From positions 26,146,288-26,210,287 of the forward strand of contig NC_092676.1 in the NCBI RefSeq assembly GCF_964355755.1: DNA of 64,000 nucleotides, written 5' to 3'. Below, piece after piece: positions 584-3,500 of this stretch (positions within the stretch are counted from its first letter, which is position 1; every line of letters begins with the position of its first letter). The translations under genes and the position numbers were made by a program. The notes beneath the pieces were generated by a model, which did no database searches, was not told where the DNA came from, and saw nothing but the letters and a program-made list of their open reading frames with translations. The stretch is from Antedon mediterranea. Lineage: Eukaryota; Echinodermata; Crinoidea; Comatulida; Antedonidae.

Positions 584-3500
584 CTGCAAACATTAGTGAT
601 GTCAGCGCCAGAGTAGCCTTCAAGATGCTGAGCAATGGCAGTTAGATCAACATCATCTGCTAGAGGCACCTCTTTCAGGTTGATCCTCAGCAGCTGCTCC
701 CGTCCTTCCACTTAAAGATCAATAAATAATGAAACTTAGCACATGGCTAGAATTTTAAACACAGCTCCGTCTAAACTATCAAACATTGTGCGACAAAAAA
801 TGTGATGTGCCCATATATGGACATGATGATGTCATACCACTACCATACTTGGGCATATCACTTTTTTTGTCAAACTAGTTTGATAGTTTGTCAATTTATA
901 TGTATAGTACATACTACAAGCAATTAAATACACACAATTAATGTTTGTATACTATAGTACTTTGCATCCATTAGTATACTTGTTGGATATATTGTTTAAT
1001 TTAAACTCACATCCTGGTAAAGGAATATATATCCTTTTTTCGAGCCGTCTACGCAACGCCTCATCTATGTCCCACGGGAAGTTAGTAGCTGCTAGAACCA
1101 TAACCATCTTAGTACTATCTGTGCCATCTCCAGTAGCTCCTTGAACACCTGTATTTTTCAAATTATTTAATAAATATTTATAATAATTATTTAGGTAGGT
1201 ACACACATACCATATAGTACTTTTTTTCATGCAATATGATGGTCTGTGTTTATGCATCTTAAGCCTTGCCTACACTATCAAACTTTATGTGACAAAAATG
1301 TGATGTGCCCATATATGGACACAATGATGTCATATCACTACCATATTTGGGCACAGCACACATTTTTTTATCATAAACTAGTTTGATAGTGTAGACAGGG
1401 TTTTACGCTCTGCTGCTTTTAGAAGTTTAAAATTTTTTTTAAGTTGATAATACAAAGTTATTATTACCATCCATTTGTACTAGAAGTTCAGACTTGACTC
1501 GGCGACTTGCTTCATGTTCGTTACTGCCACCCCGCTTGCTACAGATTGAGTCAATTTCATCAATAAAAATTGTACTAGGAGCATAAAATCTGGCCTACAA
1601 AACAAACAATAACCATCATATCTCAATAGTATTCAGTCAAATGTAAAACTCTATTTTAAAATATCCATAATCAAAGTCAATGCTCCTATTGTCTAAAAAC
1701 TTAAAATTTATTCTTTATATTCAAGTTGGGTGTAGTTGCAATTCTGAACCCCTTACTGGTATCAAAGCCGGAAACATTCGGCTTATTGTAAAAAAAACTT
1801 AACATTTATTCTTTATATTCAAGTTGGATGAAGCCATTACTGGTTTGTATAATAGATATAAAGTTACTTACCCTGCCTCTAGGTCTATGTAATGTTTATA
1901 ATAGCTGATATCAGATATAAAATATGTGAAGTAATACATCACTGTATACTTTTAAAAGACACTGCAAACGCACACCACTTACCATTTCAAAGAGAATTCT
2001 CACAAGTTTTTCCGACTCTCCATGGTATTTGGACGTAAGAGAGGCCGAGCTGACATTAAAGAAAGTAGTGCCACACTCGGTAGCGACTGCTTTTGCTAGC
2101 AAAGTCTTACCGGTGCCAGGTGGACCGACCATCATAACGCCCTAATCGAAACCAACGAAAAATAAAACCCAAAATGCTAATACGTATGAAATTTACGTAC
2201 CATTTCAAATAGCAGACGAACCAATTTCTCGGACTCGCCACGCCATTTGGAGGTTAACGAGGAAGACGATACATTGAAGAAAGTCGTGCCACACTCGGTT
2301 GCGACCGCTTTTGCTAGAAGCGTTTTCCCTGTACCGGGTGGACCTACCATTAGTACGCCCTATTGTTGGAAACATAAACACACTTCTTTATTGAATTTTC
2401 GGTTATAAATTTTAATTTTGACCGTAACCAGCATGCGGTGAGAAAAATATCCCATAATGCAAACATGCATTCATGCAAAATAAAGAATATTTTGTCTATG
2501 TATAAATTATAAATTAAAAACAAAATGCCAAGGTACCCAAATAAAATTTAAATTTAATTGACAAATTAAAAATTAGTAATACCAAAATAAAAATAGCAAA
2601 TTAGTAGAAAAGAAATCCCAAACACCAACTAACAGTAAAACTTCTATTAAAGAGACACCTTCGGACCAAACACAGTGTGCCCTTAATAAGTGAATCCCTT
2701 GAATAGTGTTTAGCCATAGGGGTAAAACATACATTGCTCCATGTTTGTTTAACAAGAAATTGTCCCTAATAGGGGTGTCCCAAAGGTCTACTATATTAAG
2801 AAATCATATTATAATTATTATTATTATTAATTAGTATTATGTGTTATGAATGCTCACAAATACCCAAGACTACTAAAGCTCTGTCCACACTATCAAACTA
2901 GTTTGACAAAAAAAAGTGTGATGTGCTCAAATATGGTAGTGATATGCCAAAATATGGTAGTGATATGTTATCATATGTCATCATGTCCATATATGGGCAC
3001 ATTACATAAAGTCATATAAAGTTTGATAGTGTGGACAGGGCTTAAGACTCCACCAAAATAACGAGAATATATTTCTGACTTACCTTCCAGGGTCTTCGTA
3101 TACCTTTAAAGTAATCTGGCATCCATAGAGGAAGAACTACGGCTTCTTCAAGAAGTCTCTTTGCTTCGGTTAAGCCTGCGATGTCAATCCTATTGGCCAG
3201 AATAATATGACAACATTAATGATGTAAACGCCAAGCTGATGTTTGAACTGTGCGACAAGAATTATTCATATGTAGTACAGTCAACCATTGGGCTAGTAAA
3301 AAATGGTTTTCTGGAAAGGTTAGTAGTCCATGTTTTTTTTTTACTTTAAAAAAATTTCATATTCATCCTAATACATGTGTTTTTAATGATGAAAAAGAAT
3401 TGGAACTTTTTGAACTTAAAAAAGACTTTTGAGAGTTTTTTATAGAGAGTCTGGTATTGGGAGAGCTGACTGTACTACCTAAAGAAAATGTTAATTTTAC

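Follow-up and report, generated by a model that had tools for sequence, protein, structure and literature searches.

The Antedon mediterranea gene for the microtubule-severing ATPase katanin p60 carries two adjacent homologous exons, A and B, for the segment of the AAA core that contains the Walker A motif and pore loop 1. We interpret them as the result of an old tandem exon duplication whose two products are used in a mutually exclusive manner within one canonical p60 gene, a reading to which we assign a probability of about 0.83. The gene is located on the reverse strand of the window, by which we mean the whole 64-kb stretch of DNA that was analyzed. The relevant features, in window coordinates and in the order of transcription, are:

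5259-5435 (-), N-terminal part from a probable start codon at 5435 (KATNA1 MIT, PF21126), 3′ exon boundary not fixed
3767-3965 (-), katanin linker exon, from the open frame and splice sites
3501-3616 (-), exon preceding the AAA domain (EKKSPEEG...NPNVHW), read from the open frame and splice sites
3084-3189 (-), constitutive upstream exon ending with ...GIRRPWK, phase 0 at its 3′ end
2432-2476 (-), candidate RBFOX-binding element made up of three GCATG sites, two of which read TGCATG, located 73-117 nt before exon A
2201-2359 (-), exon A, 159 nt, with GPPGTGKT as Walker A and KWRG as pore loop 1
2142-2200 (-), intron between A and B, 59 nt, probably below the length that normal splicing requires in this animal
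1983-2141 (-), exon B, 159 nt, with the same Walker A as A and pore loop 1 KYHG
1468-1594 (-), constitutive downstream exon with Walker B, phase 0 at its start
1011-1148 (-), katanin AAA exon
584-710 (-), katanin AAA exon, the last within the window

Exons A and B both have phase 0/0, GT-AG borders and no stop codons, and their translations of 53 residues each represent the same part of the AAA core, ending with LFEM. The acceptor sites of the pair read CAATAG and GATTAG and the donor sites GTACGT and GTAAGT. The upstream neighbour exon ends at 3084, and the downstream one (ARFYAPS...) begins at 1594; each of them is in phase 0 with A as well as with B. At the nucleotide level A and B differ at 40 positions (8 at first, 3 at second, and 29 at third codon positions), and at the protein level by five residues (L3M, S33A, W39Y, R40H, and L49I). 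Within positions 1-4200, a direct repeat of 168 nt with 76% identity between its two copies spans A and B. The repeat unit is the exon plus a few bases, and the flanks of A and B are unrelated, with 19 of 50 bases matching upstream and 21 of 50 downstream in an ungapped comparison. Adjacency, homology, compatible phase, and intact splice sites, four of the features of mutually exclusive tandem exons, were all found. An earlier note on this DNA had described two adjacent 159-nt katanin exons with phase 0/0 and intact splice sites, separated by a 59-base intron and differing in five residues alongside many silent changes; its coordinates were exact, and both the intron and the excess of silent change were confirmed.

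The introns of the gene contain copies of a short interspersed element (763-890, 1257-1405, and 2873-3047), at least two of them with terminal inverted repeats. The upstream copy has the opposite orientation to the two that lie downstream and could pair with them across A/B. Elsewhere in the window, positions 46195-47142 hold an open frame of 315 aa with a tandem acidic repeat, and two similar, adjacent open segments on the forward strand (44600-45040 and 45533-46021) suggest the tandem duplication of a domain or a gene.

The first coding segment of the host gene (5259-5435) matched the KATNA1_MIT domain (Pfam PF21126) with an E-value of 9.6e-26, and the AAA domain (PF00004) was recognized almost equally well in the two predicted isoforms, with E-values of 1.9e-42 with A and 1.4e-41 with B. 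GT-AG borders were present in all eight delimited katanin exons, and the C-terminal exon is located outside the 64-kb window, at positions 5747-5950 of locus L001. Since it combines a KATNA1 MIT domain with an AAA domain nearest to katanins, the protein can be assigned to the p60 family of the KATNA1/KATNAL1 type. A search of the animal's own genome (354 Mb, 18 contigs) yielded 25 matches with E ≤1e-5, three of which represent this locus (89-96% identity), the others showing at most 68% identity. We take three of the other matched loci, from general features of these families, to be KATNAL2-like, fidgetin-like, and VPS4-like. Among the 25 matches there was no second canonical p60, as far as the sequence does not read N, and no processed katanin retrocopy, which would reveal splicing. 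The gene is therefore probably the sole canonical p60 of this genome, N-stretches aside. In prokaryote contigs, the 80 loci retained of 504 with relatives were all bacterial or archaeal, as judged from the record titles. The previous identification of the gene as a katanin was upheld by the domain matches, but the label KATNAL1 proved too specific, because a single canonical p60 was found and its nearest solved chains are those of both human KATNAL1 and human KATNA1.

The Walker A motif is identical in A and B, and two of the five changes affect the two adjacent central residues of pore loop 1, which reads KWRG in A and KYHG in B. In the aligned sequences the loop is KYRG in human katanin (three sequences) and KWRG in MEI-1 (three sequences), and the KATNAL2-like gene of the same genome also has KWRG. 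The aromatic residue, W or Y, thus varies, whereas the arginine is present in all six of these solved katanin sequences and absent from B. With regard to the X-R-G motif, exon A has W-R-G and exon B Y-H-G. A review passage attributes to this motif a positively charged surface facing tubulin, in a wording that mixes Walker motifs with pore loops (PMC8369831). A simulation study describes two positively charged pore loops that surround the acidic tail (PMC12076492), and for published structures a paper on Msp1 mentions contacts of pore loop 2 with glutamates of the tubulin tail (PMC7018516). Pore loop 2 is encoded by neither A nor B. The change in pore loop 1 to which the earlier note had drawn attention is real and deprives B of the X-R-G arginine. 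The simplest reading of these sequences is that A would cut like a canonical katanin, whereas B would be a variant whose grip is weaker or depends on conditions; a pH sensitivity of B would be a guess prompted by the histidine alone.

A version of the main reading, with overlapping odds, regards the two mutually exclusive exons as nearly equivalent in function and kept for regulation or dosage. It is consistent with the natural occurrence of both W and Y as pore aromatics of katanins and with the mild nature of the other three changes. The effect of the R-to-H exchange may be small because W and Y vary naturally and because pore loop 2, which lies outside A/B, also contacts the tail in the structures referred to (PMC7018516). 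Removal of the X-R-G arginine and the placement of two of the five changes on central residues of pore loop 1 argue against equivalence, and we consider this version possible but rather unlikely.

The constraint acting on the two exons was assessed by a drift simulation in which random substitutions were put into exon A, with 20,000 trials per setting. When all 40 substitutions were free, they caused on average 24.3 residue differences, with a minimum of 15. With 20 free substitutions the mean was 13.2 and the minimum six, so that five or fewer differences occurred in none of the 20,000 trials. With 10 free substitutions the mean was 6.9, and five or fewer differences were obtained in 15.8% of the trials. 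Because 20 or more free substitutions always gave more than the five residue differences found, much of the divergence between A and B arose under constraint on both. The contrast of five residues with 40 bases, together with the result for 20 substitutions, supports protein-level selection on both exons, as had been proposed, and both are probably still kept under coding constraint.

These data also bear on the idea that a single exon is used and that the other copy is a leftover of the duplication. In favor of this idea, B is more changed than A relative to human KATNAL1 (6 versus 3 of 53 residues, counted by eye on the alignment), and the predicted use of A and B alike is itself derived from sequence. 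A recent loss would not show, as the setting with 10 of 40 substitutions free illustrates. The simulation excludes a long-dead exon, and drift during the last quarter or so of the divergence may be compatible with it; the pattern speaks for coding constraint on both copies, from which one of them may have been released late. The failure of 20 of 40 free substitutions to give so few residue changes, the lack of stop codons, and the intact state of both pairs of splice sites speak against disuse of one exon, which we therefore regard as improbable. By a rough molecular clock with general rates and only 28 fourfold-degenerate sites, the duplication probably dates back more than 100 million years.

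If, on the other hand, every mRNA contained A and B together, p60 would carry the 53-residue segment twice. Double inclusion would keep the frame, both exons being of phase 0/0 and 159 nt long, a multiple of three, and the same is true for joint skipping. Exclusion therefore cannot rest on nonsense-mediated decay or on a frameshift. The length of the intervening intron argues against double inclusion. In kinesin, myosin, and dynein genes of the same genome, the shortest of 203 estimated introns had 83 nt and none was as short as 59 nt. In addition, the protein would have two Walker A/pore-loop-1 segments in front of one Walker B, unlike the aligned katanin chains. We consider double inclusion very improbable.

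With its 59 nt, the intron between A and B lies below every one of the 203 estimates, so that splicing of A to B is probably sterically blocked. Inside this intron two branch-point-like matches were found, 37 nt (the one nearer to B) and 13 nt from the A donor. In a human survey of mutually exclusive exons, a distance of less than 50 nt between donor and branch point is treated as potential steric interference, for which the survey gives 57 cases or 9% of the clusters (PMC5740500); both distances are below this limit. The argument is a comparison of lengths, 59 nt versus a minimum of 83 nt, from which we infer the outcome of splicing. The steric explanation offered in the earlier note thus gains support from introns of the same genome (0 of 203 below 83 nt). 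Competing RNA structures were rejected as a mechanism of exclusion, since no pairing of the docking/selector type was seen; the search gave nothing beyond brief AT-rich matches, a single weak pair of 17 nt, and a hairpin internal to a repeat.

The intron lengths were estimated in model coordinates from pairs of adjacent domain matches in which one takes up where the other ends, and the sample comprised 69 kinesin and myosin introns and 134 dynein heavy chain introns. For myosin, 50 of 81 rows were used, the 31 rows of a cluster at G000:C3:19.6-25.1 Mb being left out. For kinesin, 135 of 139 rows entered the estimates and all 139 the check for overlap and length, and for dynein 94 of 94 and 92 of 94 rows were taken from two tables. 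The sample includes two dynein loci on contig C1 whose matches agree in nearly every row, so that they do not count as independent. The minimum of 83 nt was confirmed from its splice sites, another intron estimated at 88 nt reads as 91 nt, and in a kinase table inspected by eye the shortest intron had about 90 nt. The sample is biased against very short introns with a length that is a multiple of three, as one match can read through them; an intron of 59 nt would split a match, because it is not a multiple of three and shifts the frame. In kinesin and myosin, the two families checked in this respect, no overlapping matches were found. A re-reading for swallowed introns covered 40 regions chosen for matches with multiple stops or too great a length, and few single-stop matches, and gave two candidates of at most 82 nt, L110 and L111. 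In L110 the frame is open throughout, which makes it uninformative with respect to a short intron. The 57-nt GT-AG candidate in L111 was rejected: its removal opens the frame, but by eye the sequence that follows does not look like kinesin, and the donor is what one would expect at the end of a normal exon.

Several motor protein loci showed features of their own. A myosin head gene at G000:C1:19159516-19159821 (L005 1047-1148 and 1233-1322) has adjacent exons of about 102 and 90 nt for the same stretch. They encode LYKRNIDDQVVQANP... and GLEEQVIQTNP..., differ in length at the start, and are likely a mutually exclusive pair. The intron between them was considered as a second sub-minimal one and dropped, its length of about 84 nt being ordinary for the genome. 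The cluster at G000:C3:19.6-25.1 Mb accounts for 31 of the 81 myosin-head rows, 19 at about 342-408 and 12 at about 563-641 of the model, and these match rows point to a large expanded cluster of myosin genes or pseudogenes. At G000:C9:4155800-4158000 (L006), a block with a kinesin motor exon occurs in tandem, with translations that are alike over most of the block; it was rejected as an exon pair since the repeat is that of a larger block. The two dynein heavy chain loci (G000:C1:2208666-2214719 and 2590790-2598413) are about 0.38 Mb apart, as if recently duplicated.

An assembly artefact, with two alleles or gene copies wrongly set side by side, is a general possibility with nothing further in its favor and the least probable explanation of all: 18 of 28 fourfold-degenerate sites differ between A and B, far above allelic expectation and thus neither like alleles nor like a recent assembly duplicate, the flanks are unrelated, and the 25 genome matches, in sequence not reading N, include no other canonical p60.

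With respect to regulation, the 724-nt intron upstream of A contains the three GCATG sites within 45 nt. This is the only place on either strand of the 64-kb window where three GCATG sites occur within 60 nt. In simulated introns of 724 nt, a cluster of three was obtained in none of 2000 cases and three or more sites anywhere in 1.9%; GCATG was one of eight motifs looked at and was singled out post hoc. The genome contains two exons for an RBFOX-like RRM, with 71% and 83% identity to the query. A nearby (U)GCAUG and an RBFOX-like gene, as expected for an RBFOX-regulated exon, were thus both found in a post hoc comparison, and we regard the cluster as a candidate RBFOX element and a lead. In egl-15 of C. 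elegans, exon 5B is described as being repressed by RBFOX proteins bound to UGCAUG in the intron that precedes it (PMC3585155). Exon A has its GCATG sites in the corresponding position. By analogy, RBFOX is predicted to repress A and hence to favor B.

According to the preferred reading, that of mutually exclusive exons, each mRNA would carry either A or B, because the spacing between the A donor and the B branch point would leave too little room for joining the two. The outcome would be two p60 proteins which are identical save for 53 residues and which share Walker A but differ in pore loop 1. Form A (KWRG) would retain the canonical arginine, and form B (KYHG), with histidine instead, would hold the acidic tubulin tail less firmly or only under certain conditions. 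Since katanin works as a hexamer, cells with both forms could assemble mixed rings with graded activity. An RBFOX-type protein might control the choice between the exons by repressing A via the upstream GCATG cluster. A far-reaching extension would have the pair predate the divergence of large animal groups, the two katanins mix in the hexamer, and cells with RBFOX, such as neurons and muscle, switch from a strong KWRG grip to a histidine-gated KYHG one, so that severing would be tuned through splicing rather than gene duplication; we put it forward tentatively and hold it to be doubtful as a whole.

The architecture of the pair is of a known kind. The tandem mutually exclusive exons 5A/5B of egl-15/FGFR and 7a/7b of unc-32 in C. 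elegans and those of the human catalogue are likewise adjacent, homologous, of like phase, and code for the same part of a domain, and steric interference due to a short distance between donor and branch point is recognized there, according to the pertinent part of the human survey (PMC5740500). The katanin pair differs from them in that the gene encodes a microtubule-severing AAA ATPase. A word search for katanin in two main texts, one being the human catalogue and the other a study on tandem duplicated exons, gave no hit. The nearest case in the literature searched concerns p80 katanin of the butterfly Bicyclus anynana, also a katanin subunit gene, for which a duplication of exons 11-15 has been described (PMC3166123). 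It concerns the p80 subunit and a five-exon block, and the passage in question lists it among duplications with nonsense mutations and makes no isoform claim (PMC3166123).

The vertebrate pair KATNA1 and KATNAL1 arose by gene duplication. Like the forms predicted here, these are two p60 enzymes whose AAA cores are almost alike, but they are encoded by two genes and both human pore loops are KYRG, whereas Antedon has one gene with one exon lacking the arginine. C. elegans MEI-1 has KWRG like exon A, and no counterpart of KYHG occurs in the aligned MEI-1 or human katanin chains. The literature searched, with most subscription journals outside it, contained no description of a katanin p60 with mutually exclusive exons, in agreement with the statement in the earlier note that no such katanin isoform pair was known. 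Judged by that literature, the place of the pair in the katanin core is new.

If the preferred reading is true, the pair would represent a natural pore-loop mutation experiment, with two katanins that are the same outside 53 residues and one of them without the arginine that may help to read the acidic tubulin tail, so that the role of pore loop 1 in the tubulin code would be testable directly on a natural pair. It would also be a clean case of steric exclusion by an intron below the usual minimum of the genome, and exon duplication in this crinoid would do what two genes do in vertebrates.
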